38,268 nt of DNA from Micropruina sp. (lineage in GTDB: Bacteria; Actinomycetota; Actinomycetes; Propionibacteriales; Propionibacteriaceae): the NCBI RefSeq assembly GCF_027492755.1, contig NZ_JAPUED010000220.1:1-38268 (forward strand), read 5' to 3'. Of the stretch, positions 3,133 through 35,085 are shown one piece after another. The translations under genes were made by a program, and so were the position numbers. Every line of letters begins with the position of its first letter. Position 1 is the stretch's first letter. The notes under the pieces are model-generated. The model was not told where the DNA came from and ran no database searches. It saw nothing but the letters and a program-made list of their open reading frames with translations.

Positions 3133-4578
3133 GTGTTCTTGACCCTGACCATGACCGGAGCGGACGCCCCGGCGCTGGGTCACCTGCTGCGCAAGCACCC
3201 CGATCGGGTGCAGACCTTCACCCTGCCGGTGGGTGCCGCGACGGTGTTCTATCCGGAGTCGACCCCGGAACGGGTGACCGCGGCGCTGCTGCTCGAGGTC
3301 GACCCGATCGGCATGGTGAAGCGGCGGCTGAAGTCGCGCGAAGGGTTGTCGCTGACCGACTACGTCACCGACCGGCCGTATGCGGCGTCGTCGATGCTGG
3401 CGGTGGCGTTGGGCCGGGTGTTCAACACTGCGCTGAACGGCCGCAGTGAGTCCTACCCGGAGTTGGCCGCCGGACGGGTCCCACTGGAGATCCGGACGCC
3501 GGCGGTGCCGGCGCGCGCGACGTCCCGCCACTCGGGTGCCGAACTGGTGCGCCAACTCTTCGAGCCGCTGGGCTGGAACGTCACCGCGGCCACGCGCGAC
3601 TTCGGTCCGGAGGGAAGTTGGGGGCCGGCGCCGTATGTCGACCTGACCCTGACCGGACGGGTCCGGCTGGCTGACGCGCTGTCGCAGCTGTATGTGCTGC
3701 TGCCGGTGCTCGACAACGCCAAGCACTACTGGGTCGGCTCCGACGAGGTGGCCAAGCTGGTCCGTCGTGGTGAGGGCTGGCTGGCATCCCACCCGGAGCG
3801 GGAGCTGATCGTGCGCCGCTACCTGAAATCGCGCCGCGACTACGTGGAGGACGCCACCGCGCGGCTGCGGGCGCTGGACGACGCGGTCGACGAAACCGAG
3901 CCGGACGACCCGGCCTCCGGTGAGGAAGGGGCAGAGGCACCGACGCCGCTCAAGCTGTTGCGGCTGCAGGCCGTGCTGGACGCCGTCCGCGAGGTCGGCG
4001 CGCGCCGCGTGGTTGATCTGGGCTGCGGCGAGGGGTTCTACCTGCGGGCTCTGCTCGACGACCCGGCGATCGTCGAGATCGTCGGGGTCGACGTGTCGCC
4101 GCGGGTGCTGGAGTATGCGGAGCGCCGGCTCGGTCTCGACCGGCGCTCGGAACGGCAGGTGGCGAAGCTGTCGCTGTGGCAGTCGTCGGCGACCTATCGC
4201 GACGACCGGCTGGCCGGGTTCGACGCGATCCTGCTGGTCGAGGTGATCGAGCACCTCGACCCCGACCGGATCGACGCCCTGGAAGCGAGTGTGTTCGGGG
4301 CGGCTCGCCCAGCGCATGTCGTGCTCACCACGCCGAACCGGGACTACAACGTCGTCTACGGGCTGCCCGACGGCACATGGCGGCATCCGGACCATCGCTT
4401 CGAATGGACGCGGGCCGAGTTCGCCGCGTGGGCGCAGACGGTGGGCGACCGTTTCGGCTACCGGGTGGAGCTCCGCGGCGTCGGTGCGGTCGACGCCGTG
4501 CTCGGCGCGCCGACGCAGCTCGCCCTGTTCAGTCGCGACGACGTCGCGGAACCGCCCGGACGAGGGGAGGGCCGATGA
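3133..4578 (+). CDS. hen1: RNA 3'-terminal ribose 2'-O-methyltransferase Hen1
   Basis: A 481-residue bacterial Hen1. The N-terminal half (about 1-250, beginning MFLTLTMTG and containing LRKHPDRVQTF) is the domain specific to bacterial Hen1. The C-terminal half is a SAM methyltransferase with motif I VVDLGCGEGFYL (about 293-304), then the metal-binding set of eukaryotic and bacterial Hen1: E and EH in EVIEHL (about 369-373) and H in HRFEWTR (about 421). It methylates the 2'-OH at the 3' end of a broken RNA before sealing, so the repaired junction resists the same ribotoxin. The start is GTG 3133, which gives the usual family N terminus; ATG 3151 is an alternative. It overlaps pnkp by ATGA (4575-4578), so the two are co-translated. 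An acidic linker (about 255-275) joins the halves. Confidence 0.95.
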   Translation: MFLTLTMTGADAPALGHLLRKHPDRVQTFTLPVGAATVFYPESTPERVTAALLLEVDPIGMVKRRLKSREGLSLTDYVTDRPYAASSMLAVALGRVFNTALNGRSESYPELAAGRVPLEIRTPAVPARATSRHSGAELVRQLFEPLGWNVTAATRDFGPEGSWGPAPYVDLTLTGRVRLADALSQLYVLLPVLDNAKHYWVGSDEVAKLVRRGEGWLASHPERELIVRRYLKSRRDYVEDATARLRALDDAVDETEPDDPASGEEGAEAPTPLKLLRLQAVLDAVREVGARRVVDLGCGEGFYLRALLDDPAIVEIVGVDVSPRVLEYAERRLGLDRRSERQVAKLSLWQSSATYRDDRLAGFDAILLVEVIEHLDPDRIDALEASVFGAARPAHVVLTTPNRDYNVVYGLPDGTWRHPDHRFEWTRAEFAAWAQTVGDRFGYRVELRGVGAVDAVLGAPTQLALFSRDDVAEPPGRGEGR

Positions 4579-7569: not shown

Positions 7570-10500
7570 TTAAGCCCGGGTGATCCGGAGGGTTTGCACC
7601 TGGAACGGACGCAAGGTGAGGCCGACCGACACCCCGTCGTCCGTCGCCGAGTGGGCGACCGGGTCGCCGGGGCGCTCCAACAGGTCCGCGGCCCGCACGG
7701 AGGCTACCGGCAGATCGACGGTCAGTTCAGTCGATGCCCGGCCGCCGGAGGCCTCGTAGACCCGGACGATCAGGTCACCCGAGCGGTCGTCGGCGAGCTT
7801 CACCGCGCTGATCAGCACCCGCGGGTCGCTGGACGTCACCAACGGCGCCAGTTCGGCTCCCCGCGCCGGGCGGGCCGGCACGTTGACGGCCCAGCCCAGT
7901 TCGGTGGCCCGGGCCGGGTCGGCGCCGAAGGCGAGCGCGAACCGCATCTGCTGGACGCCGAGGTCGGTCCGCGGGTCGGGGAAGCGCGGCGCTCGCAGCA
8001 TCGAGAACCGGACGTCGGAGACCACGGTGCCGCCGCGCTGCGATCGCACCACGTCGAAGCCGTAGGTCGAATCGTTCGCGAATGCGACGCCGAAGCCGGG
8101 CTCCTGGACCAGGAACCAGCGCTGGGCGTGGGTTTCGAACCGGGCGTTCTCCCACGAGGTGTTGTCGTGGGTGGCGCGCGACTGGAAGCCGAACTGGGTC
8201 TCGGCGATCGCGGTGTCGGCGAACACGTCGATCGGGAAGGCCAGCTTGAGGAACTTCTCGGTCTCCTGCCAGTCGACCGTGTTGTCGATCAGCAGCGCCC
8301 GGCCGTCCGCGGACAGCGACAGCCGCTGCTCGATGGACGAGGCACCGAACGAACGCCGTACGACGATCGCGTCGCCGTCCAGCCGGACCTCGTCGGCGGT
8401 CTCGATGTCGCGGCGCATCGTGCGGTAGCTGTTGTCGACGTCCCAGGCGTCCCACAGGTTCGGGAAGTCCTGGTGCAGCTGCAGCAGGTTGCCCCGCTCG
8501 CCGGCCGGGATCGCATCCCGTCCGGACGCCAGGTCGACTGCGCTCACCACGTGCCCGGCCGCGTCCAGTTCGATTCGGACGGCGTCGCTGGCCAGCACGA
8601 AACCGTCCCCCGCCACCGAGGCAGTGGTGCCGGCGGGGGTGACCGGAAGGCTGACGGCCCCCGCCGCCACGCCCGATTGAGCGATCGGTGCGGCGTTGAC
8701 CAGGAGGTTCGGCTCTGCGGCGTCCAGCTCGACGCCCAATGCCGCCAGCGAGTCGGCGATGATCTGGTTAAGGGTCTGCGCCACCAGCGCGTAGCGGACG
8801 ACCGCCTCGCGATGCACCCAGGCGATCGAGGTGCCGGGCAGGATGTCGTGGAACTGCAGCAGCAGCACTTCGTGCCAGGCCCGGTCGAGCGTCTCGTACG
8901 GGTACGGATGCCCCGTCCGGACGGCCGCGACGCTGGCCCACAGCTCGGCCTCGAACAGCAGCTGCTCGCTGCGCCGGTTGCCCTGCTTCATCTTGTGCTG
9001 GGTGGTGTACGTGGCGCGGTGCCGCTCCAGGTACAGCTCGCCCTTCCACACCGCAGGCTCGGGCAGCTCGGCCCTGGCCCGCTCGAAGAAGGCGTCCGGG
9101 GTCTCCCAGGTGACCTTGGCGCTGCCCTCCAGGTCGGCCAGCCGCTTGGCCCGGGCGATCATCTCGCGGGTGGTGCCGCCACCGCCGTCGCCCCAGCCGG
9201 TCGGCGCCAGCGAGGACGAGCCGATCGACTTCTCCTTGAAGTTGCGGTCGGCGCGGGCCACCTCGTCACCGGACAACTGGGAGTTGTAGGTGTCCATCGA
9301 CGGGAAGTGGGTGAAGATCCGCGAGCCGTCGATGCCCTCCCAGTGGAAGGAGCTGTGCGGGAAGATGTTCCGCTCGTTCCAGGAGATCTTCTGCGTCAGG
9401 AACCATTCGAAACCGGCCCCGACAAGCAGCTGCGGCAGTGCCGCCGAGTAGCCGAAACTGTCCGGCAGCCAGGCCCCGCGGCATTCGATTCCGAACTCGT
9501 CGCGGAAGAAGCGCTGCCCGTACAGGAACTGCCGGATCATCGCCTCGCCGCCGGGCAGCACGGCGTCGGCCTCGACCCACATGCCGCCGACCGGGACGAA
9601 ACGCCCGTCGGCGACCGCCTGCTTCACCCGGGCGTACACCTCGGGGCGATGTTCCTTGATCCAGGCGTACTGCTGGGCGCTCGACATGGCGTAGATGAAG
9701 TCGTCGTGCTCGTCGAGCAGGGTGACCATCGAGCTGGTGGTGCGGGCCACCTTGCGGACGGTTTCGCGCAGCGGCCACAGCCACGCCGAGTCGATGTGGG
9801 CGTGGCCGACCGCGGTGATCCGGTGCGCGGAGGGCGCGGCCGGGCTGCTCAGCACCTCGACGAGTTCGGCCCGGCCCGCGGCGGCGGTGCCGGCGATGTT
9901 CTGCAGGTCGACGGCGTCCAGCGCCCGATCGAGCGCGAACAGGATGCGTGCCCGACGGGCGGAGCTCGCGTCCAGCTGCTGGGCGAGCTGCAGCAGCACC
10001 TCGACGTCGTGGACGAGTTCGAACACCTCGGTCTCGAAGACCACGACGTCGGCACGGCGCAGCCGGTACAGCAGCTCTTCTCCGGCGGTGGCCCATTCCC
10101 CCTTCTCGGTGGGCTGGAACGGCACATAGTCGAGCAGCACCGGATTGGACGCCGCCTCGACGTAGAACTCGATCGGCTCACCGCCGGTGGCCTCGCCGAC
10201 CACCGGGATCCACTGTGCGCGCGGGTGCAGGGACCGCACCGGGCTGCCGTCCGCGCGGTAGACCAGGCCCTCGGCCTGGAAGCCGGTCATGTTGATGTCG
10301 AAACCGAGGTCGAGCAGCACCTCGACCCGCTCGCCGGCGAACTCGGCGGGCACCTGGCCGGTGACTCGGAACCAGGTGGTGTCCCAGGCCCGCCCCCACG
10401 GCTCGCCCGGCTGAGTCGGCGCGTACTCGGCGGCCAGCCCGTCGGCGACTGCGATCGGTTCGCCGCCCACCCGGTGCGCGGCGATCATCAGCGGATGTGG

Positions 10501-10581
10501 CCGCGAATGGATGGCGGGGCGCAGCCGCTCTTCGAGGACGCGGACCGCGCGGGCAAGCGTCAGATCCTGGTTGTTGTGCAT
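7570..10581 (-). CDS. Alpha-mannosidase, glycoside hydrolase family 38
   Basis: A 1003-residue GH38 enzyme that removes alpha-linked mannose from mannosides or N-glycan-type oligosaccharides. It has a zinc-site motif GHAHIDSAW (about 258-266), a nucleophile aspartate in WLPDSFGYS (about 373), and a zinc ligand in LLQFHDILPG. The C-terminal beta-sandwich follows (RDAIPAGERGNLLQLHQDFP onward). There is no signal peptide or membrane segment, so it acts in the cytoplasm. The ATG (10579-10581) overlaps the stop of the GH5 gene by one base, so the two are translationally coupled. A much longer in-frame extension to 11271 would run through GH5 and is rejected. It is expected to follow the operator-bearing promoter in front of GH5. 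Confidence 0.93.
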   Translation of the reverse strand: MHNNQDLTLARAVRVLEERLRPAIHSRPHPLMIAAHRVGGEPIAVADGLAAEYAPTQPGEPWGRAWDTTWFRVTGQVPAEFAGERVEVLLDLGFDINMTGFQAEGLVYRADGSPVRSLHPRAQWIPVVGEATGGEPIEFYVEAASNPVLLDYVPFQPTEKGEWATAGEELLYRLRRADVVVFETEVFELVHDVEVLLQLAQQLDASSARRARILFALDRALDAVDLQNIAGTAAAGRAELVEVLSSPAAPSAHRITAVGHAHIDSAWLWPLRETVRKVARTTSSMVTLLDEHDDFIYAMSSAQQYAWIKEHRPEVYARVKQAVADGRFVPVGGMWVEADAVLPGGEAMIRQFLYGQRFFRDEFGIECRGAWLPDSFGYSAALPQLLVGAGFEWFLTQKISWNERNIFPHSSFHWEGIDGSRIFTHFPSMDTYNSQLSGDEVARADRNFKEKSIGSSSLAPTGWGDGGGGTTREMIARAKRLADLEGSAKVTWETPDAFFERARAELPEPAVWKGELYLERHRATYTTQHKMKQGNRRSEQLLFEAELWASVAAVRTGHPYPYETLDRAWHEVLLLQFHDILPGTSIAWVHREAVVRYALVAQTLNQIIADSLAALGVELDAAEPNLLVNAAPIAQSGVAAGAVSLPVTPAGTTASVAGDGFVLASDAVRIELDAAGHVVSAVDLASGRDAIPAGERGNLLQLHQDFPNLWDAWDVDNSYRTMRRDIETADEVRLDGDAIVVRRSFGASSIEQRLSLSADGRALLIDNTVDWQETEKFLKLAFPIDVFADTAIAETQFGFQSRATHDNTSWENARFETHAQRWFLVQEPGFGVAFANDSTYGFDVVRSQRGGTVVSDVRFSMLRAPRFPDPRTDLGVQQMRFALAFGADPARATELGWAVNVPARPARGAELAPLVTSSDPRVLISAVKLADDRSGDLIVRVYEASGGRASTELTVDLPVASVRAADLLERPGDPVAHSATDDGVSVGLTLRPFQVQTLRITRA

Positions 10582-11780
10582 CAAGCCTCCACGGTCGCGG
10601 CCAGGGTCACCCGAGGGTGCCGGCCGGCACGGGCAATGTCCATGTAACGCTCCCAGAACGCGCCGCCCGGTGCCAGATCGCGGCGGCTCACGTCGGTGGG
10701 GTCGAGCAGCAGTCGCGGCGGGTCGGCGTCGTCGACGCTCTCCCGGCGGCGTCGGCGCAACTCGTCCATCGCCCGGGCGAGCACCCGGCCCTCGTTCTTG
10801 ATCGTGCCGTGCTCGTCGATCAGGCCGAGGTCGTACTCCAGTTCGGGGAAGTCGGCCAGTGACCGGCTGACGTCGTGCGAGCACCACCAGGTGATGCCGT
10901 ACAGCTGCGGGGTGTCGGCGAGCTGCTCGACGGTGGCCTCGATGAACGGTGCGACGGACGCCTGCGGCAGCACGTTGCGCGGCGCACCCACCTCCTGCAC
11001 CCAGACCGGGCGATCCGGGTCGGCCTGGAACGCCCGGGCGATCTCGGTCAGGTAGCGGGCGTGCGCCCGGGTCTCGAAGGCGTCCGGGCCGTAGACCTGG
11101 GCGGTGCCGTTGAACACCCACGAATGCAGCACGGTCATGTCGCCCAGGTTCGCGGCGTGCGCCGGGGTGAAAGGCTGGGTGTCGTCGTACCAGGTGGCGT
11201 CGTAGCAGGCGTGCAGCACCTGGACGTCGGGGGCGCCGGTGCGCAGCGCACCCAGCATCGCGTCGAGCCACGCGCTCACGTCACCCTCGGACGCCGGATA
11301 CGGCTCGGGATGGACGGTGCCGGTGAACTGGTTGACCTCGTTGCCGACGGTCAGTCCGAGCAGGTTGGGGTGACCGGCACAGGCTCGGGCCAGCGCGGTC
11401 AGGTAGACGGCCGTGGAGGCGACCACGTCGGGGTCGGTGAAGAAGCCGCGGCGATGCCAGCTGGTCAGCCAGGCCGGCACGAAGTCGAAGCTGGACAGGT
11501 GACCCTGCAGGCCGTCGACCCAGACGTCCAGGCCGCGCTCGTCGGCGAGCTCGATCACCTTCTCGACATCGGCCAGGCCGCCGGGGCGGATCAGTGTCCG
11601 GTTCGGCTGCAGCAGTGGCCAGAGCGGGAAGACCCGGACGTGGTCGACGCCCAGTTCGGCGATGGTGTCGAAGTCGCGGGCCACGTCGTCGGCGCTGAAA
11701 TCGAGCCAGTGGTGGAACCATCCGACGCGTGGGGTGTAGTTCACCCCGAAGCGGACCGGGGCTCCAGCAGGGGCCGTCAT
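10581..11780 (-). CDS. Glycoside hydrolase family 5, probable subfamily 18 beta-mannosidase
   Basis: A 399-residue (beta/alpha)8 enzyme. The N terminus FGVNYTPRVGWFHHW and the blocks VRVFPLWPLLQPNRT and DGLQGHLSSFDF match what I know of GH5_18, bifidobacterial beta-mannosidases that split the Man-beta-1,4-GlcNAc core of N-glycans. The acid/base is E148 in TVGNEVNQ and the nucleophile E263 in VWVQEVGAP, as expected for clan GH-A. No signal peptide is present. I choose ATG 11780 because a TTGACA/TAAAGT promoter ends 7 bp before it, which leaves no room for an upstream start and implies a leaderless transcript; no Shine-Dalgarno sequence is visible. It is the first gene of the GH5-GH38 operon. 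Family is firm, subfamily is inferred from recall and context. Confidence 0.82.
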   Translation of the reverse strand: MTAPAGAPVRFGVNYTPRVGWFHHWLDFSADDVARDFDTIAELGVDHVRVFPLWPLLQPNRTLIRPGGLADVEKVIELADERGLDVWVDGLQGHLSSFDFVPAWLTSWHRRGFFTDPDVVASTAVYLTALARACAGHPNLLGLTVGNEVNQFTGTVHPEPYPASEGDVSAWLDAMLGALRTGAPDVQVLHACYDATWYDDTQPFTPAHAANLGDMTVLHSWVFNGTAQVYGPDAFETRAHARYLTEIARAFQADPDRPVWVQEVGAPRNVLPQASVAPFIEATVEQLADTPQLYGITWWCSHDVSRSLADFPELEYDLGLIDEHGTIKNEGRVLARAMDELRRRRRESVDDADPPRLLLDPTDVSRRDLAPGGAFWERYMDIARAGRHPRVTLAATVEA

Positions 11781-11784
11781 CGGC

Positions 11785-11815
11785 GTAACTTTACCGATTG
11801 AGTATCGCCTGTCAA
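11785..11815 (-). promoter_or_regulatory. Promoter and LacI-type operator of the GH5-GH38 operon
   Basis: On the minus strand a perfect -35, TTGACA (complement of 11810-11815), is followed after 16 bp by TAAAGT (complement of 11788-11793), 7 bp before the GH5 ATG. Between and into the -10 lies TCAATCGGTAAA (complement of 11790-11801). It is centred on CG like LacI-family operators and shares its left half TCAATC with the sites at 13171 and 20785. Binding there would block RNA polymerase directly. Confidence 0.65.
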
Positions 11816-12014
11816 AGGCTCTGTCCGGGGGCCGCCGCGCGGGCTCGGGCGGGGTCACCGGAACGTCGGCGGCCGACCGTGCCGGACCCAGCCGTCCGCG
11901 CGCCTCGGAACCGCTCGGCCGGGCCGTGCGGGAGCGGGGCGAGGCAGCCCCGGCCGCCCTTCCGCCACTACGTTAAGGTTGGCCCGGAAACAGGCACGAC
12001 CGGGAGGCGGAGCA

Positions 12015-13055
12015 ATGGCGGCCAGAGAGGCGGGTATTCCCCGTTCCGGCCGCGTCACGATTTCCGACATCGCCCGTCGGGCGGGTGTCACCAGCGGTGC
12101 CGTTTCGCTCGCAATCAACGGCAAACCGGGCGTTTCCGATATCACTCGGGCCCGCATCCTCAGGATCGCCGACGAGATGCGCTGGCGTCCGAATCACGCC
12201 GCCAAAACGTTGCGCGGGCAGAGCCCGCATTCCATCGGACTGGTGCTGACCAGGCCCGAAGAGGTGGTCGGCGAAGAGGTCTTCTTCACCAAATTCCTCG
12301 CCGGCGTCCAGTCGGTGCTGAGTCAGCGGGGCTATTCGCTGCAGTTGCAGATGGCTACCGACCTGGCCTCCGAGACGGCCATCCATGCCGACTGGATCGC
12401 CGACGGCCGGGTGGACGGCATCCTCGTCCTCGACCCGCGGGTGGACGATCCACGGGTGGCCGCGCTGCTCGAACTCGGCCTGCCTGCGGTGATCGTCGGC
12501 GGCGACCAGGACGGCGCCGCCTTGACCAGCGTCCGCACCGACGACGGGCAATTCATGCGGGTGGTGTTCGACCATCTGCTCGCCCTGGGGCATCAGCGAA
12601 TCGGTTACATCACCGGCGACCAGAGCTTCGCCCATATTCGCCGGCGCATCGCTGCTTTCACCGACTACACCCTCGAATCGGGTATCTGGGGCATCACCCT
12701 GGCGGCAGATTTCGTGCCGCAACAGGCCAAGGAAGCCACCCGAAAACTCATGTCGTCACCCAAGGGCCCGACCGCGCTGATTTTCGACAGCGAAGTGATG
12801 GCCATCGCCGGAATGGCGACGTTGAGCGAGTTGGGATTCGCGGTGCCGGGCGATGTTTCGGTGCTGTCGTGGGAAGACTCGGCAACCTGTCGGGTGCTGC
12901 ACCCGACGCTGACCGCGCTGAATCGTGACGCCGCGGCATTGGGTCGCCAGGCCGCGACCGGCATGCTGCGACTGCTCGACCGTGAACCGGCCGACGAGCC
13001 GGCGGTCGTCGCCAGCGTGGTGCCCCGCGAGTCGACGGCGCCCCCGGCGTCCTGA
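12015..13055 (+). CDS. LacI family transcriptional regulator of the mannose-glycan locus
   Basis: A 346-residue LacI/GalR repressor. The N-terminal helix-turn-helix (about 14-40: VTISDIARRAGVTSGAVSLA) is followed by a hinge helix (NHAAKTLRGQ, about 60-69) and a periplasmic-binding-protein-like sensor domain (SIGLVLTRPEE onward, with VDGILVLDPRVDD, HQRIGYITGD and VSVLSWEDS). The start is ATG 12015 with GGGAGG at 12002-12007; an earlier ATG at 11979 lacks a ribosome site. It sits between the GH5-GH38 operon and the importer operon. The TCAATCG elements in three nearby promoters are its most likely operators. I see no copy in front of the gene itself. The inducer is probably a mannose-containing oligosaccharide, by context. 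Confidence 0.92.
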   Translation: MAAREAGIPRSGRVTISDIARRAGVTSGAVSLAINGKPGVSDITRARILRIADEMRWRPNHAAKTLRGQSPHSIGLVLTRPEEVVGEEVFFTKFLAGVQSVLSQRGYSLQLQMATDLASETAIHADWIADGRVDGILVLDPRVDDPRVAALLELGLPAVIVGGDQDGAALTSVRTDDGQFMRVVFDHLLALGHQRIGYITGDQSFAHIRRRIAAFTDYTLESGIWGITLAADFVPQQAKEATRKLMSSPKGPTALIFDSEVMAIAGMATLSELGFAVPGDVSVLSWEDSATCRVLHPTLTALNRDAAALGRQAATGMLRLLDREPADEPAVVASVVPRESTAPPAS

Positions 13056-13159
13056 TCCGCGCCGACTTCCAACTGACGTTCCGACAACTGACGTTTCCGA
13101 TCCGCCGAGCCCGGAGGCTCGCCCCCTGGTCTCTGCGAGCCCGATCGGTGGGCCGTCCC

Positions 13160-13188
13160 TTGCACTCAACTCAATCGATGTAGTAACT
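13160..13188 (+). promoter_or_regulatory. Promoter and LacI-type operator of the importer operon
   Basis: TTGCAC (13160-13165) and GTAACT (13183-13188) are spaced 17 bp and could be -35 and -10, though the -10 is weak. TCAATCGATGTA (13171-13182) fills the spacer. Its core TCAATCGAT is the same as in the manA/ROK site, which points to repression by the adjacent LacI protein. A short direct repeat, CAACTGACGTT, lies upstream at 13070-13080 and 13085-13095. Confidence 0.6.
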
Positions 13189-13240
13189 TCCACGCCACCA
13201 TGCGCCGTCGCTTGGCGGCCTTGCACAACTATGAGGAGGC

Positions 13241-14533
13241 ATGATGAGACGCTTCACCGGACTCGTCACCCTGGTGGCATCGGCCGCACTCGCTCTGACT
13301 GCTTGCACGGGCGGCGGCGCAGCCCCCGCTCCGGCACAGTCCAGCGGTGGTGGCAGCGGCAAGCTCTCCGGAACGGTGAAGTTCCAGAGCTGGTCGCTGA
13401 AGAACGAGACGTTCAGCCCCTACTTCGAGGCGCTCTTCGCCTCGTTCGAGAAGGAGACCGGCGTCAAGGTCGAGTGGCTCGACCAGCCCGGCGAGGGTTA
13501 CCAGGAGAAGGTGCTCGCCCAGGCCAATTCCGGTTCGTTGCCCGACGTGATCAACCTGCCGCCGGACATCGCGTTCCCGCTGGCCAAGGCCGGCGTGCTG
13601 CTCGACGTCAACGCGGCCGATTCGTCCCTGGCCTCGACCTTCGTGCCGGGCGCCTGGGAGGCCTACTCCTACCCGGGCCTGACCGGCACGTTCGGCATTC
13701 CCTGGTACCTGGGCACCGACCTCAGCTGGTGGAACGGCACCGAGCTGAAGAAGTACGGCGTCGACACCGACAAGCTGCCGACCACCAATGAAGAACTGAT
13801 CGAGCTGGCCAAGAAGGTCGGCACCGAGTCCAAGGGCAAGCTGCCGGTGCTGTCGTCGATGCCGACGATCGACCTGTTCTCGTCCAGCGGCGTCCCGGTG
13901 ATGAACGACGCCGGAGACTTCGTCTTCAACACCCCGCAGGCCGCCGCGATCGTCGATCAGTTCCGCGACGCCTACAAGGCCGGCGGTGTCCCCCCGGAGG
14001 CGCTGACCGGTGACTTCGGTGGCAATGCCGACAACTTCAAGGCGGGCAAGGTCGCCTACACCACGGCCACCTCGACCTTCGCCACCGATCTGGCGAAGAA
14101 CGCGCCGACGATCGCCAAGGGCGTCATCGCCACGCCGCGTATCGGCGACGCCCCGCTGTTCGTCCAGGGCGTCTCGGTCGCGGCCAACTCGGCCAACAAG
14201 GACGCCGCGCTCGCCTTCGCGAAGTACCTGACCAACACGGCCAACCAGGTCGCGTTCTGCAAGATCGCCGTCGGCTACATGCCGGGCACGGTCGAGGGCA
14301 GCGCCGATACCGCGTCGCTCAGCGCGGGAGTCAAGGACGAGTTGCAGTTGAAGGCCATCGGCATCGTGGTCGAGTCCATGAAGACCGCGCGGGTGCTCAC
14401 CCCCGTGCAGTGGACCGGTGCGATGAAGACCTACATGGACCAGCAGCTCGCCCTCGCCCTCAAGGGAGAGATCGGTTCGCAGGAGGCGCTCGACAAGATC
14501 GTCAAGTACGCCAACACGAACAAGGTCGAGTGA
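13241..14533 (+). CDS. Sugar ABC transporter substrate-binding lipoprotein
   Basis: A 430-residue extracellular solute-binding protein of the maltose/oligosaccharide type (family 1). It has a lipoprotein signal with lipobox LTAC and lipidated C22, a Gly/Ser/Ala/Pro linker, then the mature domain starting KLSGTVKFQSWS. It contains the typical segment YQEKVLAQANSGSLPDVINL. Two ATGs occur at 13241 and 13244; AGGAGG (13234-13239) leaves 1 or 4 bases, so the second may be used. It is the first gene of an operon with two permeases. The likely ligand is a mannose-containing oligosaccharide, judged from the GH38, GH5 and GH92 neighbours and the shared operator, not from binding residues. Confidence 0.92.
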   Translation: MMRRFTGLVTLVASAALALTACTGGGAAPAPAQSSGGGSGKLSGTVKFQSWSLKNETFSPYFEALFASFEKETGVKVEWLDQPGEGYQEKVLAQANSGSLPDVINLPPDIAFPLAKAGVLLDVNAADSSLASTFVPGAWEAYSYPGLTGTFGIPWYLGTDLSWWNGTELKKYGVDTDKLPTTNEELIELAKKVGTESKGKLPVLSSMPTIDLFSSSGVPVMNDAGDFVFNTPQAAAIVDQFRDAYKAGGVPPEALTGDFGGNADNFKAGKVAYTTATSTFATDLAKNAPTIAKGVIATPRIGDAPLFVQGVSVAANSANKDAALAFAKYLTNTANQVAFCKIAVGYMPGTVEGSADTASLSAGVKDELQLKAIGIVVESMKTARVLTPVQWTGAMKTYMDQQLALALKGEIGSQEALDKIVKYANTNKVE

Positions 14534-14575
14534 CCTGAACCGCCTAGCGATCCCGGGAAGGAGAAGGAGGAACCC

Positions 14576-15457
14576 ATGAAGTCACACAAGTGGTTCACGC
14601 CGTGGCTGCTGGTGGCACCGGGTGTCATCTGGGTGCTGGTGTTCGGCCTGTGGCCGTTCTTCAACACCGTGGTGCTGAGCTTCACCAACGCGCGCCCACT
14701 GCAAGCGGGACGGTTCATCGGACTGGAGAACTATGCCCGGATCGGCTCGGACGAGCAGTTCGGCTACGCGCTGACGACGAGCCTGATCTACATGGTCGTC
14801 TGCATTCCGTTGCTGACGATCCTGCCGTTGCTGGTCGCGCTGCTGGTGGAGAAGACGATCCCCTGGATCACCTTCTTCCGCACCACCTTCTACTTCCCGG
14901 TGATCGCGTCGGTGGTTGTGGTCGCCCTGATCTGGAGTTGGCTGTTCGACACCAAGGGCTTGATCAACGGCGCCCTCGAGGCGATGGGTGTGGTCGACAA
15001 CCCGGTTCCGTTCCTGGTCGACCGCTGGTGGCTGCTGATCACCGCCATCCTGCTGACCGTCTGGAAGGGCCTCGGCTACTACATGGTGGTCTACCTGGCC
15101 GCTCTGGGTAACTCCAACAAGGAGTTGCACGAGGCAGCCGCGCTGGACGGCGCCGGAGCCTTCCAGCGGTTCCTGACGGTCACCCTTCCGGCGGTCCGGG
15201 GCGCGATGGTGCTGATCATGGCGCTGGTGGCGGTCTCCGCACTGCGCGTCTTCACCGAGTTGCAGGTGCTCTCCAACGGCACCGGCGGCCCTGGTGGCCA
15301 GTCCATGTCGCTGGTGATGTTGATCAAGACGGTCGGTTCAGGGCTGACCGGCAACGTCGGCTACGCGTCGGCGCTGAGCGTCGTGCTGTTCCTGATCACG
15401 GCGTTGCCGCTGCTGGCGATCGCCTGGATGAACCGCGAGAAGGAAGCGAAGGCCTGA
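14576..15457 (+). CDS. Sugar ABC transporter permease, MalF type
   Basis: A 293-residue inner-membrane permease with six predicted helices, starting SHKWFTPWLLVAPGVIWVLV. The ATPase-contact loop EAAALDGAGAFQRFLTVTLP (EAAxxDGA motif) is near residue 185. It forms the channel with the next gene and is fed by the upstream lipoprotein. GGAGAAGGAGG lies just before ATG 14576. The operon has no ATP-binding gene, so it probably borrows a shared ATPase of the MsiK type, as many actinobacterial sugar importers do. Confidence 0.93.
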   Translation: MKSHKWFTPWLLVAPGVIWVLVFGLWPFFNTVVLSFTNARPLQAGRFIGLENYARIGSDEQFGYALTTSLIYMVVCIPLLTILPLLVALLVEKTIPWITFFRTTFYFPVIASVVVVALIWSWLFDTKGLINGALEAMGVVDNPVPFLVDRWWLLITAILLTVWKGLGYYMVVYLAALGNSNKELHEAAALDGAGAFQRFLTVTLPAVRGAMVLIMALVAVSALRVFTELQVLSNGTGGPGGQSMSLVMLIKTVGSGLTGNVGYASALSVVLFLITALPLLAIAWMNREKEAKA

Positions 15458-15458
15458 C

Positions 15459-16394
15459 ATGACCACAACCGTGGAAGAAACCCCGCAGTCCATCGAGATC
15501 GCGGCGCGGGCCGTCAAGCCCAAGAAGGTCAAGGAGCCGGCCTACCGGCGCAAGGGCTCGAGCGATTTCCTCAAGCCCACGCTCGGAGGCCTGATCGTCC
15601 GGTACGTGCTGCTGGCGATCATGACAGTGATCGTGGTCGGCCCGCTGATCTTCCAGTTGGCGACGTCCTTCAAGGGCCCGCTCGACGACATCTACAACTT
15701 CCCGCCCAGCCTGATCCCGACGGACCCGACCTTCCAGAACTACGTGCGGGTGCAGGACTTCATTCCGATCTACCTGTACGCCTGGCACTCGTTGCTGGTG
15801 GCGGTGGGCACCGTGATCACCAACGCGGCGTTCGCCACCTTCGGCGGGTACGCGTTGGGCTGCATGGAGTTCAAGGGAAAGAAGATCGTCTGGGGCATCC
15901 TGCTCTCGACGATGCTGCTGCCCGGTGAGGTCACGATCACCAGCCAGTTCCTGACCATCAAGGCGTTCGGACTGGCCGACACCCTGTGGGGCGTCTTCCT
16001 GCCGGGTGCGGTCGGTGCGATGAACGTGATGCTGATCGCCACCGCCTGCCGGGCGATCCCGCAGGACATGCTGGCCGCGGCCACCATCGACGGTGCCACC
16101 ACCTGGCAGCGGATTCAGCACATGGTGTGGCCGAACATCAAGGGCATGGTCAGCGTGGTCGCGATCTTCTCGTTCATCGGTGCCTGGGACGACTTCCTGT
16201 GGCCGCTGATCGTGCTGTCGGATCCGGCCAAGTACACCCTGACGGTCGGCATGGCGTTCCTCAGCGGCAACTTTGCCGATCCGCGACTGGTCGCGGCCGG
16301 TACGATGATCGCGCTCGTCCCGATCGTGATCCTGTTCTCGGTGATGCAGAAGCACTTCTTCGCCGGTGTCGAGGAGGGCGCTGTCAAGGGATGA
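15459..16394 (+). CDS. Sugar ABC transporter permease, MalG type
   Basis: A 311-residue partner permease. A charged cytoplasmic N-terminal stretch of about 40 residues rich in lysine (VKPKKVKEPAYRRK) precedes six helices (YVLLAIMTVIVVGPLIFQLA first). The EAA-type loop is LAAATIDGATTWQRIQHMVWP with the DGA core. The start ATG 15459 is one base after the stop of the previous gene, so the two are translationally coupled. It should carry the second substrate-path half and contact the ATPase. Confidence 0.93.
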   Translation: MTTTVEETPQSIEIAARAVKPKKVKEPAYRRKGSSDFLKPTLGGLIVRYVLLAIMTVIVVGPLIFQLATSFKGPLDDIYNFPPSLIPTDPTFQNYVRVQDFIPIYLYAWHSLLVAVGTVITNAAFATFGGYALGCMEFKGKKIVWGILLSTMLLPGEVTITSQFLTIKAFGLADTLWGVFLPGAVGAMNVMLIATACRAIPQDMLAAATIDGATTWQRIQHMVWPNIKGMVSVVAIFSFIGAWDDFLWPLIVLSDPAKYTLTVGMAFLSGNFADPRLVAAGTMIALVPIVILFSVMQKHFFAGVEEGAVKG

Positions 16395-16401
16395 TTGTCT
16401 G

Positions 16402-19400
16402 GTGACGACCCCGGTACTGCGGCCCGATCCAGGGCCGCCGGAGCCACCATCGTCTCGCCCCCGAGCAGGAGTGCTCGGGGGCGAGGTGTTCTCCTTCTCC
16501 TACCGGCCCGCGGACGGCGTCCAGCGACTTCCGCTGGTCTCCGTCCTCCCGGCGGACGCCGGTGTCTTGCCGGTCGGCACCCGGTCGCTGGTCGAGCTTG
16601 TCGAGAGCTCTTTGGTGGCCGCCGACACCGAACTGCACTGGGCCTTCTACGCCGACGACGAAGCGGCGTTGCGAGCGCCCTGGGCGTCCCTGGCGGTCTG
16701 CCCGGACGTGGTCTTCGATGACGGCTCCCGGCTGTCCGACGGGCTCCCGGATCGCGGGCCCGCCATCGACCGGTACGGCTTCCCGGTCACGCCGTCCGAT
16801 CAGTTCGCGGCGCGCTGGAGCATGCCGCAGCAATGGAACGCCGACACGGTCTCGCTCGCCCCCTGGGCCGGACGCAGGATCAGCGCCATCGAGGTCGTCC
16901 TCGGCGACGGGTCGTTGACCGGCGACGCCGCCGCTGAGCCGGCGACGGGCTGGGTCGAGGTCGTCGTGCGGCGAGCAGAGGCACTTGCGGGCTGCCCGGC
17001 CGAACGGGTCGACACCCGGCGCGGCACGCATGCGGGCGCCCGGTTCTCCCGCGGGAACACGCTTCCCGCCGTCGCGCACCCGCACGGCTTCGTCTTCCTC
17101 ACCCCGGCCACGGACGCCGCCGACACCCGCTGGCCGTACCGCTGGGGTGTCCACGACGAACCGGCCGGACGCCGGCTGGCGGCGTTGCAGACCTCGCATC
17201 AGCCGAGCCCGTGGATCGGCGATCACGGGGTGCTGCAGTTCCTGCCGTACCTGCCCACGGCGGGTGGGCCGTCCGGTCACGGCGGTCACATCGTGCCGGG
17301 CACCGAGCTGGCCCGGCCGCACCGGTACGCCGCGACGTTGGTCGAGGGCATCGAGGTCGAGGGCGCGAGCACATCTGCGGTGGTCGCGGTGCGGGTGCGT
17401 GGCGCCTGGGCCGGTCTGCTGGTCGGTTGGCCGCCGGGCGACGGCTCACTGGCGCTGGAGTCGCTCCCGGACGGCAGGGTGACGGTCCGAGGCTGGATCG
17501 GCGAGCGTCCGGACGCCGCCTGGGGCAACGCGCCCCGGATGTACGTCTACGGCGAGACCGCGGAGCCAGCCGCGGTAGAGACCTCCGGCGAGCCGTACGG
17601 GCTGGGGGTGATGGCACCCGGCGAACTGGAACTGCGGGTCTCGACATCCTTCCTCTCCGCCGAGCAGGCGCGCCGCACCTTCGACCTGGAGGCGCCCTGG
17701 ACGTCCGGCTTCGACGAGCTGGTGGCGGCGAGCCGGGCTCGCTGGGACGCGATCTGCGGCGCCGTCGAACTGCCGGCGCCCGCCGATGACCGGTACGCCC
17801 TAGCCCATCGCGAACTGCGGGCCACGCTCGCGCACGCCCTGTACCGGCTGAACCTCTACCCGAACACCGCGTCCGAGAACGCCGGGACCGCTGACGCGCC
17901 CGTGTGGCGCTTCGCCGACGTCTTCACCCGCGCTGAACCACACGGCGAGGAGGTCACCGGCGCACCCGTCGCGTCCGGACGGCTGGTGGTGAACAACGGC
18001 TACTGGGACACCTATCGCACCGTCTGGCCGCTGCTCGCTCTGCTGGACGCGGACGTCACCGGGGAACTGCTGGACGGGCAGCTGGAGCAGGTCCGCCGCG
18101 GCGGTTGGACGGCGCGGTGGAGCGGTCCCGGCTACATCGATTGCATGGTCGGTACCTCCAGCGATCAGGTGTACGCCCAGGCCGCCCGGCTCGGCGTCGG
18201 CGGTTTCGACCGCGAGCTGGCCTACGAGTCGGGTTGGCGCAACGCCTGCGAACCCAGCCCGGACCCCCGTACCGGACGAGCGGGAACGGCGTCCGCGCGG
18301 TTCACCGGCCATGTTCCACGTGAAATCCACGCCGGGTTGTCCTGGACCATCGAGGCCGCGATCGGGGACGCCGCGCTGGGCCGGTTCGCCGCACTCCTCG
18401 CCGAGACGTCGTCGGAGCCCGTGCGCTACCGGGCACATGCCCGCTACTTCGCGAACCGTTCCCTGTCCTACCGGCAGCTGTTCGATCCGGAGACCGGCTT
18501 CTTCCGCGGCCGTTCCGCCGCTGGCCGAGCTTGTCGAGACCCTGGTGAATTCAACCCTGACAAGGTGTTTCGACAAGCTCAACCATCGGCGGAGCAGGGT
18601 GATCTGCATCCCGTCGGCGACTTCGATCCCGCGGTCTGGGGCGGTGACTACGTCGAGACCAACGCCTGGGGCATGTCGGCCTCCGCGGTGCACGACGGCG
18701 CCGGCCTGGCGGAGCTGTTCGGTGGCCCGGCGGCATTGCGGGAGCATCTGGACCGGCTGTTCGCCGAGCCGGAGACGATCGTGGCGCCGTACCATCCCGA
18801 TCAGGTGGTGCACGAGCAGCTCGAGGCAAGGGCCTTGCGCTCGGGCATGTGTGCGCTGTCGAACCAGCCGGCGCACCACCTGCCGTTCATGTACCTGCAC
18901 ACCGATCAGCCCTGGCGCGCCGCACCACTGGCGCGGGAACTGGCCGGACGGCTGTTCGCCGGCGGGCACATCGGCCAGGGCTTCCCCGGCGACGAGGACA
19001 ACGGCGAGATGAGCGGCTGGTGGCTGTGGGCTTTGCTCGGCCTCTATCCGCTCGATCCGGGCAGCGGCGAGCTGGTCATCGGGGCGCCGCTGGTCGACGA
19101 CCTCACCCTGCGTCGCGATGTGGGTCCGCTACGAGTACGGGTGAACCGCGAGTCGCCGGACGCGTCGTACCTGGCAGCCGCGTCCTGGAACGGGCGTGTC
19201 CTTAGCCGACCCCGGCTCACCCCCGCTGAGCTCGCCGAACCGGGGGTGCTCGAGGTCGACCTGGTCGATGAACCGCCGGCCGACGCTCTGCTCTGGCAGG
19301 AGCCGGCGGCCACCGTCAAGGAGTGGCAACCGGATCTGTGTCATCCCGAGTTCGCCCTCGCGAGCTCCGGTGTGAACGCTCAGGTTGCCTTCGACGACGG

Positions 19401-19707
19401 TGCCGACCCAGATGGCTGCTGCACTGTGCAGCCGGGTCAGTGGCTGGGCCAGGACTTCGGTGTCCCGCGACGTGTGACCGACCTCACGGTCACAACCCTG
19501 GACCCGGCGGATGCTCACTGCTTCGTGGTCGAGCACAGCGAGGACGGCCTGGTCTGGCAGCAAGCTTCCGCCACGCACCACGAGCCGCTGCCAGCGAACC
19601 GGACGACCCCATTTCAGCTAGCCACACCGGTATCGAGGCGCTACTGGCGAGTTCGGGTGACGGCCCCACTCCGGCTACGGCAGCTCGAGTTCTTCGACCT
19701 CGACTGA
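16402..19707 (+). CDS. Glycoside hydrolase family 92 alpha-mannosidase with discoidin-like ends
   Basis: About 1100 residues. GH92 enzymes are calcium-dependent exo-alpha-mannosidases, most often alpha-1,2 specific. The GH92 beta-sandwich begins at FSRGNTLPAVAHPHGFVFL. The catalytic barrel holds WGGDYVETNAWGM and, near residue 865, GDEDNGEMSGWW, the family's acid-residue motif, then LLGLYPLDPGSGELVIGAP. The last 130 residues (ASSGVNAQVAFDDG, WLGQDFGVPRRV) look like an F5/8 type C carbohydrate-binding domain. There is no signal peptide, so it is probably cytoplasmic. GTG 16402 follows the permease stop by 7 bases. GTG 16486 is an alternative, because a strong hairpin fills 16454-16485 and the residues before it are proline-rich and look unconserved. 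About 25 residues near 705-732 look inserted. Confidence 0.85.
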   Translation: MTTPVLRPDPGPPEPPSSRPRAGVLGGEVFSFSYRPADGVQRLPLVSVLPADAGVLPVGTRSLVELVESSLVAADTELHWAFYADDEAALRAPWASLAVCPDVVFDDGSRLSDGLPDRGPAIDRYGFPVTPSDQFAARWSMPQQWNADTVSLAPWAGRRISAIEVVLGDGSLTGDAAAEPATGWVEVVVRRAEALAGCPAERVDTRRGTHAGARFSRGNTLPAVAHPHGFVFLTPATDAADTRWPYRWGVHDEPAGRRLAALQTSHQPSPWIGDHGVLQFLPYLPTAGGPSGHGGHIVPGTELARPHRYAATLVEGIEVEGASTSAVVAVRVRGAWAGLLVGWPPGDGSLALESLPDGRVTVRGWIGERPDAAWGNAPRMYVYGETAEPAAVETSGEPYGLGVMAPGELELRVSTSFLSAEQARRTFDLEAPWTSGFDELVAASRARWDAICGAVELPAPADDRYALAHRELRATLAHALYRLNLYPNTASENAGTADAPVWRFADVFTRAEPHGEEVTGAPVASGRLVVNNGYWDTYRTVWPLLALLDADVTGELLDGQLEQVRRGGWTARWSGPGYIDCMVGTSSDQVYAQAARLGVGGFDRELAYESGWRNACEPSPDPRTGRAGTASARFTGHVPREIHAGLSWTIEAAIGDAALGRFAALLAETSSEPVRYRAHARYFANRSLSYRQLFDPETGFFRGRSAAGRACRDPGEFNPDKVFRQAQPSAEQGDLHPVGDFDPAVWGGDYVETNAWGMSASAVHDGAGLAELFGGPAALREHLDRLFAEPETIVAPYHPDQVVHEQLEARALRSGMCALSNQPAHHLPFMYLHTDQPWRAAPLARELAGRLFAGGHIGQGFPGDEDNGEMSGWWLWALLGLYPLDPGSGELVIGAPLVDDLTLRRDVGPLRVRVNRESPDASYLAAASWNGRVLSRPRLTPAELAEPGVLEVDLVDEPPADALLWQEPAATVKEWQPDLCHPEFALASSGVNAQVAFDDGADPDGCCTVQPGQWLGQDFGVPRRVTDLTVTTLDPADAHCFVVEHSEDGLVWQQASATHHEPLPANRTTPFQLATPVSRRYWRVRVTAPLRLRQLEFFDLD
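16454..16485. terminator. 14-bp perfect hairpin near the 5' end of the GH92 gene
   Basis: CTCGCCCCCGAGCA (16454-16467) and TGCTCGGGGGCGAG (16472-16485) are exactly complementary around a 4-nt loop, GGAG. The following GTGTTCTCC is not a clean U-tract. By strength and position, 60 bases after the permease stop, it could end or weaken transcription between the importer genes and GH92, or protect the upstream mRNA. If GTG 16402 is the real start, this stem is translated. Confidence 0.55.
18514..18593. repeat. REP-like palindrome inserted in the GH92 coding sequence
   Basis: Outer arms TCCGCCG (18514-18520) and CGGCGGA (18587-18593) and inner arms GAGCTTGTCGA (18527-18537) and TCGACAAGCTC (18570-18580) are perfectly complementary. 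The inner arms belong to the same family as the intergenic copies at 7520 and 19730. The encoded stretch (GRACRDPGEFNPDKVFRQAQ) separates FFRGRSAAG from FDPAVWGGDY, two pieces that are usually close together in GH92 proteins. The frame is kept. Confidence 0.7.
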
Positions 19708-19726
19708 CCGTGCGCACATTCGAGGG

Positions 19727-19826
19727 TTGAGCTTGTCGAAACCCGGTGAGTGATCTCGACAAGCTCGATCAACGGTGGCAGGGACGAGACGGCGTCCGAG
19801 GACGAGGAATCTCGACACGCTCGATC
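19727..19826. repeat. Cluster of TCGACAAGCTC-type palindromes between GH92 and ROK genes
   Basis: TTGAGCTTGTCGAAA (19727-19741) faces TCTCGACAAGCTCGATCAA (19754-19772), and a diverged third copy, TCTCGACACGCTCGATC, lies at 19810-19826. The first pair can form an 11-bp stem. The cluster sits between convergent genes and may serve as a bidirectional terminator or simply be a REP insertion site. Confidence 0.7.
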
Positions 19827-19848
19827 AGCGGAGGGTGAAGAAGCGGGG

Positions 19849-20769
19849 TCAGACCAGCAGGTCGGAGCGGTGCACAAGGGCGGCAGCGCCGATCAGCGGG
19901 GCGTCGCCGGCCAGGGACGCCCGCTCGACCCGGACGGCGCGGGCGAACGCGTTCACCGCACGAGAATCCACCGCCGCGCGGATGTGATCGACGTAGTCGT
20001 CGGCGACCAGCGAGAACCCGCCGCCGACCACGGCCAACTCCAGGTCGAGCAGGGTCGCGGCGTTCACCACGCCGGTGCCGATGAAGGTGGCGGACCGCAC
20101 CACGGCGGCGACGGCGATCGGGTCGCCCGCGGCGTAGGCGGCGGCCAGCTCTTCGCCGTCCGACCCGGTCCAACCCTGGGAGCGGGCCCAGGTCACGGTG
20201 TGCGGCCCGGACGACAGCTCCTCGACAGTCGCCGCGGCCGCCGAGCCCTCGACCCGGTCGACGATGACCTGGCCGAGGTGCCCGGCGTTCCCGGTGGCCC
20301 CGGCGATCACCCGACCGTCGGAGATGATGCCGCCGCCCACACCGGTGGAGACGACGAAGACCATGGCGTTGCTGACCCCGCGCGCCGCGCCCAGCCACAA
20401 CTCGGCCAGCGCGATGCAGGTGCCGTCGAGACGCAGCCGGACGTCGTCCAGCCCGGACGCCTCACGCACCACGTCGACGATCGGGAAGTCGCGCAGGCCG
20501 GGCAGGTTGATCGGCGAGATCGCGCCGAGCGGCAGGTTCAACGGGCCGGCCGAACCGATGCCGGCGGCGGCGACGTCCGACCAGTGCGGCGAGTCGAGTG
20601 CGGGCCGCAGCGCGGAGGCGATCGAAACCGCTGCGGCGTCCGGGGTCGAGGCGCCGGTGGCGCCCATTGCGGCGCGGCCGCGGGTGCCCTCGATAATGGT
20701 GCCGTCGGTGCCGATGAGCGCCGCCTCGACCTTGGTTCCGCCGAGATCGATAGCCAATGCAGCCGTCAT
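19849..20769 (-). CDS. ROK family sugar kinase, probably mannokinase
   Basis: A 306-residue ROK-fold kinase with the phosphate-binding N terminus AIDLGGTKVEAAL (about 5-17), GIGSAGPLN, and the second phosphate motif STGVGGGII. No helix-turn-helix precedes it, so it is an enzyme and not a ROK repressor. It lacks the usual zinc-binding cysteines: after GNAGHLGQVIVD, where most ROK kinases have a CxCGxxGCxE-like loop, it reads GSAAAATVEELSSG. In this locus, next to manA and under the same operator, phosphorylation of mannose (or GlcNAc) released from glycans is the best guess. The start ATG 20769 is 16 bp from the operator at 20785. Substrate is inferred. Confidence 0.85.
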   Translation of the reverse strand: MTAALAIDLGGTKVEAALIGTDGTIIEGTRGRAAMGATGASTPDAAAVSIASALRPALDSPHWSDVAAAGIGSAGPLNLPLGAISPINLPGLRDFPIVDVVREASGLDDVRLRLDGTCIALAELWLGAARGVSNAMVFVVSTGVGGGIISDGRVIAGATGNAGHLGQVIVDRVEGSAAAATVEELSSGPHTVTWARSQGWTGSDGEELAAAYAAGDPIAVAAVVRSATFIGTGVVNAATLLDLELAVVGGGFSLVADDYVDHIRAAVDSRAVNAFARAVRVERASLAGDAPLIGAAALVHRSDLLV

Positions 20770-20779
20770 GGCGACACGG

Positions 20780-20802
20780 TATCCTAAATCGATTGAGGAG
20801 GG
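20780..20802. promoter_or_regulatory. Shared operator between ROK kinase and manA
   Basis: The 43-bp gap between two divergent starts holds TAAATCGATTGA (20785-20796), whose reverse complement TCAATCGATTTA matches the sites at 11790 and 13171 in its TCAATCG half. TATCCT (20780-20785) could be the manA -10. GAGGAGGG (20795-20802) is the manA ribosome site and overlaps the operator. One bound repressor would silence both genes. Confidence 0.65.
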
Positions 20803-20812
20803 TAGGACTTCG

Positions 20813-22009
20813 TTGTTTATCGAGCTTTCGAATACGCCGCGGCACTATGCGTGGGGTTCCTACGACGGCATCGCCGGCTTCACCGGGCAGCAGCCGAGCG
20901 GGGAACCCGAGGCCGAACTGTGGTTCGGCACCCATCCGGGTTCACCGAGCCTGACGCCGCGCACCTTCCCACCCACCGAGCCCGGCCACGCGACGCTGCG
21001 CGACTGGGTCGCCGCCGAGCCGGAACTGCTGCTCGGGAACCCGGACGCCACCGAACTGCCGATCCTGCTGAAGGTGCTGGCCGCCCGGACGCCGCTGTCG
21101 CTGCAGGTGCATCCCAGCCCGGAACAGGCCGAGCAGGGCTACGCCGACGAGGTCGCCCGGGGAATCGAACCCGACGCGTTCATCCGCAGCTACAAGGACC
21201 CGCATCCGAAGCCCGAGATCATCGTCGCCGTCACCGAGTTCGAGGGACTGTGCGGCTTCCGGCCCAGCGCCGAGGTGGCCGCATTCGCCGCCGACCTGGC
21301 GGCACTGGCACCGCAACCGAGCCCAGGGGTGGCCCAACTGCTTGAGCTATTGGCCGATCCCACCGCGATGGAGCCGGTGGTCGACTGGTTGTTGTCCGGT
21401 GAGGCGTCGGCCGCCGAGTGTGTCGCCGAGGTGGTCGCGCTGGCCGGCTCGGACGCCGCCGCCACTGCGCCCAGTGCGGCCACCTTCCACACCATCGGCG
21501 AGCTGGCGGAGCACTACCCGGGCGACCCGGGCGTGGTGGTCGCCGCGCTGCTCAACCAGACGGCGCTGCGGCCGGGGGAGTGCATGTTCGCCGCCGCGGG
21601 CGTCCTGCACGCCTACCTGCGCGGCGTCGGCATCGAACTGATGACCGCCAGCGACAACGTGCTGCGCGGCGGGCTGACCCCCAAGCACGTCGACACCGGC
21701 GAACTGCTGCGGGTGCTGTCCTTCGAGCAGGGCGAACCGGCCCTGCTGGTGCCGGGACGTCCGGCCGAGAACGTGACCGTGTACGCGCCGCCGGCACCCT
21801 TCGAACTCGCTGTCGTCGACCTGGCCGGCAGCACCGAGCAGCTGCATGGTGGGCCGGCGATCCTGCTGGTCGAACGCGGCCCGGTGACGCTCACCGGCGC
21901 GGAGGCGTCCGTCACCCTGGGGCGGGGGCAGGCGGTGTTCGTCCCGGCGTCCGAGAGCAAGGTGATCCTCAGCGGCACCGGACGAGTGTGGCTGGCCAGC
22001 GCCGGCTGA
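20813..22009 (+). CDS. manA: Mannose-6-phosphate isomerase, class I
   Basis: A 398-residue type I phosphomannose isomerase that converts mannose-6-phosphate to fructose-6-phosphate. The zinc-site pieces are LSLQVHPSPEQ (about 93-103), KPEI in HPKPEIIVA (about 132) and HAYLRGVGIELM (about 265). The latter runs into the family signature ASDNVLRGGLTPKHVD. I start at TTG 20813 because the protein then begins LFIELSNTPRHYAWGS, the normal family N terminus, with GAGGAGGG 10 bases before it. A longer frame upstream runs antisense through the ROK gene and is not real. It completes the route from imported mannose to glycolysis. Confidence 0.94.
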   Translation: MFIELSNTPRHYAWGSYDGIAGFTGQQPSGEPEAELWFGTHPGSPSLTPRTFPPTEPGHATLRDWVAAEPELLLGNPDATELPILLKVLAARTPLSLQVHPSPEQAEQGYADEVARGIEPDAFIRSYKDPHPKPEIIVAVTEFEGLCGFRPSAEVAAFAADLAALAPQPSPGVAQLLELLADPTAMEPVVDWLLSGEASAAECVAEVVALAGSDAAATAPSAATFHTIGELAEHYPGDPGVVVAALLNQTALRPGECMFAAAGVLHAYLRGVGIELMTASDNVLRGGLTPKHVDTGELLRVLSFEQGEPALLVPGRPAENVTVYAPPAPFELAVVDLAGSTEQLHGGPAILLVERGPVTLTGAEASVTLGRGQAVFVPASESKVILSGTGRVWLASAG

Positions 22010-23641: not shown

Positions 23642-26750
<3,109 letters not shown>

Positions 26751-26811
26751 CCCGAACCCGACGCCGCCGTCCGTCAACGGCGACAGACACAACCACAAGT
26801 GAGGAATGACC

Positions 26812-27105
26812 ATGAAGGTGTTGCTGATCTGCTCGGCAGGAATGTCCACGAGCCTGCTGGTGAACAACATGCTGAAGTTCGCCGAGGCCGGCGACGCGGT
26901 CGACGCGCTGCCGTTCGGCGAGCTCGAGGCCAAGATCGCCGACTACGACGTCGTACTGCTCGGCCCGCAGATCCGGTTCAAGCTCTCCGACGTCGAGAAG
27001 GTGGCTGCCGCGCACGGCAAGCCCGCCGAAGTCATCGACATGAGGGTGTACGGAACGATGAACGGCAAAGCCGCGATGGAGCAGGCCCGACGCCTGCTCG
27101 CCTGA
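26812..27105 (+). CDS. PTS lactose/cellobiose-type EIIB
   Basis: A 97-residue EIIB with the phospho-cysteine C7 in the loop ICSAGMSTS, the hallmark of this class, and the conserved LLGPQIRFKL later. I prefer ATG 26812 because GAGGAA at 26801-26806 is well spaced; ATG 26806 overlaps that site. It accepts phosphate from the EIIA at 23642 and passes it to sugar bound by EIIC. The order IIA-GH1-IIC-IIB-regulator is compact. Confidence 0.93.
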   Translation: MKVLLICSAGMSTSLLVNNMLKFAEAGDAVDALPFGELEAKIADYDVVLLGPQIRFKLSDVEKVAAAHGKPAEVIDMRVYGTMNGKAAMEQARRLLA

Positions 27106-27132
27106 GCATGATCAGGATGGAGAGTTCGCGTC

Positions 27133-35019: not shown

Positions 35020-35035
35020 ATTGCCCCCCGTTCGG

Positions 35036-35071
35036 TTCTGTGGGGAGCCGCCGCAGCGACTCCCCACAGAA
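35036..35071 (-). terminator. 12-bp hairpin between livK and livH
   Basis: TTCTGTGGGGAG (35036-35047) and CTCCCCACAGAA (35060-35071) are exactly complementary with a 12-nt loop. It follows the livK stop by 14 bases, and the livH ribosome site comes right after. This arrangement commonly lets a binding-protein mRNA accumulate above the rest of the operon, by partial termination or by blocking 3' decay. No U-tract is present. Confidence 0.65.
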
Positions 35072-35085
35072 TCAGTAGTTGATCC

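Follow-up and report, generated by a model that had tools for sequence, protein, structure and literature searches.

In Cutibacterium acnes, a GH5_18 enzyme (CaMan5_18) paired with a GH38 was shown to split Man-GlcNAc efficiently and mannooligosaccharides poorly, and the glycan was proposed to be released outside the cell and trimmed inside (PMC6160142). Locus 1 of this species contains GH38 and GH5_18 genes without signal peptides, a sugar ABC importer and a regulator, and no GH92; in strain 266 it holds a GH20 and a GH18, both predicted to be cytoplasmic. The high-mannose operon of Bifidobacterium longum (Cordeiro et al., 2019, 2022, as summarized in PMC10154615) likewise serves import first and includes GH38 enzymes and a GH5_18 specialist, its α-mannose set comprising, in that summary, three GH38 and one GH125. 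The N-glycan locus of Streptococcus pneumoniae combines GH92, GH38, ROK, the NgtS-P1-P2 importer, whose ATPase apparently lies elsewhere, and an endoglycosidase; it also encodes GH125, GH20, GH29 and EndoD (GH85), and no GH5_18 is listed (PMC5215778). Its GH92 was placed outside the cell in a review (PMC10154615).

We analyzed a stretch of 38,268 nucleotides from Micropruina sp. (the window), which makes up contig C220 in a metagenome assembly of 3.74 Mb (257 contigs, 85% complete). Gene identities were obtained by Pfam and NCBIfam profile searches, and start codons were refined by sequence inspection. A preliminary description of the window had reported GH38, GH5, LacI, an ABC importer, GH92, ROK and manA clustered at about 7570–22009, and all of them were recovered by profile search:

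7570–10581, minus strand: GH38 α-mannosidase (Pfam GH38N/mid/C; GH38N E 8e-92)
10581–11780, minus strand: GH5_18, predicted exo-β-1,4-mannosidase (weak match to Pfam GH5; E 7e-134 to ScGH5_18)
11788–11803, minus strand: putative operator ACTCAATCGGTAAAGT (exact motif match, just upstream of the GH5_18 ATG)
12015–13055, plus strand: LacI-family regulator (Pfam LacI HTH and Peripla_BP_3, E 3e-29)
13169–13184, plus strand: putative operator ACTCAATCGATGTAGT (exact motif match, upstream of the importer genes)
13241–14533, plus strand: sugar-binding lipoprotein of the ABC importer (Pfam SBP_bac_1, E 1e-31; lipobox-like N-terminus)
14576–15457, plus strand: ABC importer permease 1 (Pfam BPD_transp_1)
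15459–16394, plus strand: ABC importer permease 2 (Pfam BPD_transp_1)
about 16402–19707, plus strand: GH92 α-mannosidase (Pfam GH92, E 1e-90; E 4e-148 to NnGH92, 7nsn)
19849–20769, minus strand: ROK sugar kinase (Pfam ROK, E 1e-40)
20783–20798, minus strand: weaker putative operator CCTCAATCGATTTAGG between the divergent ROK and manA genes (differs from the motif at 2 positions)
20813–22009, plus strand: manA, mannose-6-phosphate isomerase (TIGR00218, 206 bits against a cut-off of 116 bits)

Two divergent units are arranged around LacI, with GH5_18–GH38 running leftwards and LacI, the importer and GH92 rightwards; beyond GH92, ROK is read leftwards and manA rightwards. The start codon of GH38 overlaps the stop of GH5 (TGATG), and that of GH92 coincides with the end of permease 2 or follows it by a few bases. 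No ATPase gene was found within the locus and no endoglycosidase gene within the window, the latter as described previously. The binding protein carries a lipoprotein-type signal. No strongly hydrophobic segment was present at the N-termini of GH38, GH5 and GH92, and the earlier statement that these hydrolases have no signal peptide agrees with our inspection, none being visible in the three proteins or, for GH92, in the relatives examined; from the missing signal peptides we infer that they would be cytoplasmic. Compared with the C. acnes locus, Micropruina adds GH92, ROK and manA, and compared with the α-mannose set summarized for B. longum it has one GH38 and one GH92, in a genome without GH85.

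The GH5, previously called 18-like, belongs to subfamily 18 by sequence. In phmmer searches it matched the solved GH5_18 groups (ScGH5_18, BlGH5_18 and BlMan5B from B. longum, and C. acnes CaMan5_18, 6gvb) as close relatives, with E-values of 7e-134 to 3e-100, as against only 1.5e-15 for the next GH5. Numbered from the longest ORF start (11858), the predicted acid/base E174 and nucleophile E289 were present together with R75, N173, H245, W247 and W325 of the −1 subsite, residues matched by motif, not by structure, to Glu140, Glu259, Arg41, Asn139, His215, Trp217 and Trp295 of CaMan5_18; the full set was invariant in 11 relatives. A phylogeny had been recommended, and in a tree of actinobacterial proteins of this type, built with other GH5 subfamilies left out, the protein nested with the remaining Micropruina copies; their neighbours were Microbacterium gorillae, Tessaracoccus, Timonella and a further genome of the Propionibacteriaceae, and the Kribbella-like lineage formed a long branch. 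The best reading is an enzyme of subfamily 18 predicted to split Man-β-1,4-GlcNAc, and for the locus it is import-first N-glycan use, as proposed at the outset.

GH92 aligned with NnGH92 (7nsn) across most of its length, and its predicted acid E764, its bases D876/D878, W283 and H816-E817 (numbered from 16366) correspond to the residues of NnGH92 and Bt3990. Since the Trp/His/Glu triad sets α-1,2 specificity in this family (PMC10167667), GH92, which keeps it, is a predicted α-1,2-mannosidase. The best solved relatives of the binding protein are generic sugar binders; nagA is present in the genome, and the ROK kinase probably acts on released mannose. For GH38, the best solved relatives were the α-mannosidases 7ufr–7ufu (E down to 4e-226), which we take to be N-glycan enzymes of B. 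longum, followed by yeast-type Ams1, and it probably trims α-1,3- and α-1,6-linked mannose from the N-glycan core.

The preliminary description had argued that the glycan must be released elsewhere or by other organisms, and had suggested looking for GH85 and GH18 enzymes in the genome. This search located a predicted secreted endoglycosidase in the same genome, so that the help of other organisms would not be needed. The only GH18 of the genome lies on contig C204 (about 9259–10230, minus strand); its product of 323 residues matched Endo H (6ve1) across the whole catalytic domain (E 6e-88) and carries a DGIDLDDE motif and a signal peptide of the AQPAAA type. Throughout this domain the Micropruina GH18 is about 50% identical to Streptomyces Endo H (1edt, 6ve1), with which it also has the DG-D-DDE motif in common. 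We consider it a secreted relative of Endo H with the corresponding predicted activity, unlinked to the locus, in contrast to the GH18 of C. acnes strain 266. With this gene, the genome unites GH38 and GH5_18 without signal peptides, an importer, a regulator and a putative endoglycosidase, as expected of an import-first system. GH85 was discarded as a candidate endoglycosidase partner: neither this genome nor any of the six Micropruina genomes has it, and among relatives it showed no association with GH5_18 (4/27 with GH5_18 vs 7/70 without). GH20, which would act on the chitobiose core, was likewise missing from the genome, which fits the import of glycans with a single GlcNAc.

On C204, the Endo H gene stands alone between genes for a LysM protein and an ICMT-like protein. 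The order LysM, ICMT-like, pdxH-like (the last named by sequence alone) and universal stress protein is common to C204 and Micropruina G004, both with Endo H. The complete genome G005 has the same neighbours but neither the locus nor Endo H, LysM and ICMT being 127 bases apart, and contig C204 therefore belongs to the genus. Endo H was also missing at this site in G003, and neither G003 nor G005 has GH5_18.

Across relatives, Endo H was found in 17 of 97 genomes, all of them with GH5_18 (17/27 with vs 0/70 without); within the family it was present in 3 of 11 genomes with GH5_18 and in none of 46 others (Fisher p 0.006), although these genomes are akin and not phylogenetically independent, so that p-values serve only as a guide. 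Three Microbacterium genomes (M. gorillae, RM44 and Yaish 1) carry the Endo H gene within the locus itself, adjoining GH92. Neither Endo H nor GH85 was detected in 8 of the 27 genomes with GH5_18, among them Micropruina G001 (89% complete), which has the locus without an Endo H match. Endo H is therefore not obligatory, and some of these genomes rely on other glycan sources or enzymes.

A motif derived from the promoters of three Micropruina loci and two Endo H genes, ACTCAATCGNTNNAGT, has exact copies upstream of both GH5_18 and the binding-protein gene, and the stretch separating ROK from manA holds a further copy that deviates at two positions. When up to two mismatches were allowed, the window gave four matches (two of them being one site on both strands) against 0.21 expected, and a 217 kb sample of the same genome gave none. 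C204 contains one exact copy, at 10294–10309, just before Endo H, the only visible tie of this gene to the locus. The site before the binding protein is the same in G001 and G004. In its symmetrical form, ACTNAANCGNTTNAGT, the motif is a palindrome with a central CG, as in operators of the LacI family; of 79 loci, most of which took no part in deriving it, 73 have it close to the start of the binding-protein gene, compared to 2.6% of random windows. With one mismatch, it also precedes Endo H in both Micropruina genomes, in three Microbacterium genomes and in G056. In Kribbella-like genomes (L041–L044, L137–L150), which are large and belong to the same order as Micropruina, the sequence before Endo H has drifted to GCTATACCGGTTTATC or a close variant, and this version also stands before the binding protein of these genomes themselves. 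That two unlinked promoters have drifted in the same way speaks strongly for a single regulator. No enrichment was seen before GH92 or GH38 across loci, as expected for genes inside operons. The LacI protein at 12015–13055 is the probable local repressor, and the locus and Endo H together have the make-up of a LacI operator regulon, with predicted binding at these sites. Inside the GH5_18 operator, a −10-like TAAAGT stops about 7 bases short of the likely ATG of the gene, a position that suggests a leaderless transcript.

The core of the locus is widespread. Among 80 named genomes gathered by a GH5_18 profile, most of them Streptomyces and relatives, the genes found near GH5_18 were both permeases (75 loci), the binding protein (73), LacI (73) and GH38 (67), GH5_18 being conserved more than any other hydrolase in it. 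GH92 was part of it in only 3 of the 80, the three Microbacterium genomes named above, and, beyond this set, in Micropruina G001 and the family member G046. Its recurrence in about 70 further genomes shows that the grouping is not due to chance. The parallel with the N-glycan loci of bifidobacteria drawn earlier holds and extends further, the GH5_18/ABC/LacI core being common in Actinomycetota and described in C. acnes (PMC6160142).

We propose, with a probability of roughly 85%, that the locus encodes the cytoplasmic part of a high-mannose N-glycan regulon under LacI control in Micropruina. On high-mannose glycoproteins, secreted Endo H would cut the core between its two GlcNAc residues, and Man(n)GlcNAc would be imported by the binding lipoprotein and the permease pair, working with an ATPase from elsewhere in the genome. 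In the cytoplasm GH92 would take off α-1,2 mannose, GH38 the α-1,3 and α-1,6 mannoses, and GH5_18 would split the remaining Man-β-1,4-GlcNAc; mannose would be converted to fructose 6-phosphate by ROK and ManA, and GlcNAc would enter the NagA route. LacI would occupy the ACTNAANCGNTTNAGT sites in the promoters of the importer, GH5_18, ROK/manA and Endo H until an imported sugar relieves repression. For the activities, the transported and the repressor ligands, the order of steps and the cytoplasmic location, this scheme extrapolates from sequence. The import-first principle is already known, the closest counterparts being the C. acnes, B. longum and pneumococcal systems described above; what this variant adds is a predicted cytoplasmic GH92 in combination with GH5_18, and a tie to Endo H through the operator. 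A partial literature search, without subscription papers, retrieved no description of this combination or link, and no publications on Micropruina mannosidases or an Endo H regulon.

GH92 and GH38 also serve the use of yeast mannan in Bacteroides (PMC10154615), and NnGH92, the best relative of the window's GH92, works on yeast mannan (PMC10167667). The locus might accordingly serve fungal or yeast α-mannan or O-mannan oligosaccharides, with GH5 acting on β-mannosides of other origin. We regard this as unlikely, as GH5_18 is the hydrolase retained most consistently and its characterised member far prefers Man-GlcNAc over mannooligosaccharides; moreover, the operator is common to Endo H, an enzyme that needs the chitobiose core, and the window has no recognisable endo-mannanase gene. 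Slightly less probable again is the uptake of glycans or free oligosaccharides released by others, such as eukaryotic cytosolic Man-GlcNAc, with Endo H as a separate matter. It would account for G001 and the seven other GH5_18 genomes that show neither Endo H nor GH85, but the window's genome has an Endo H gene with the same operator, and in Microbacterium this gene lies within the locus.

Beyond Micropruina, it is likely that a conserved LacI-type regulon ties secreted Endo H, even where unlinked, to GH5_18 and ABC import throughout Actinomycetota, that Endo H serves in nature to open N-glycan feeding as its first step, and that the operator and the Endo H gene co-vary by lineage. This would give a likely natural role to an enzyme best known as a laboratory reagent, and a complete, testable N-glycan feeding pathway to Micropruina, a genus known from activated sludge. 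With the common operator as a guide, the regulon can be read from genomes, and additional members are to be expected. Actinobacteria of soil and water commonly have the intracellular GH38/GH5_18 pathway that was described in host-associated relatives; the glycoproteins available to them would be of fungal, plant or protist origin.

The flanks of the locus contain further gene sets. Just upstream lie the RNA-repair genes Hen1 and Pnkp (3133–7127, plus strand), the former with Hen1_L (E 2e-96) plus a methyltransferase and the latter a kinase/phosphatase/ligase (PNKP E 3e-157). Downstream, a GH1 β-glucosidase or phospho-β-glucosidase, a PTS EIIC and a PRD/EIIA-type regulator (23974–29043, plus strand) are followed by an ABC importer of the branched-chain amino acid type (32336–36513, minus strand) and a Sir2 gene (36515–37261). 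A similar GH1-EIIC-PRD set adjoins GH5_18 in Tessaracoccus caeni (L048).
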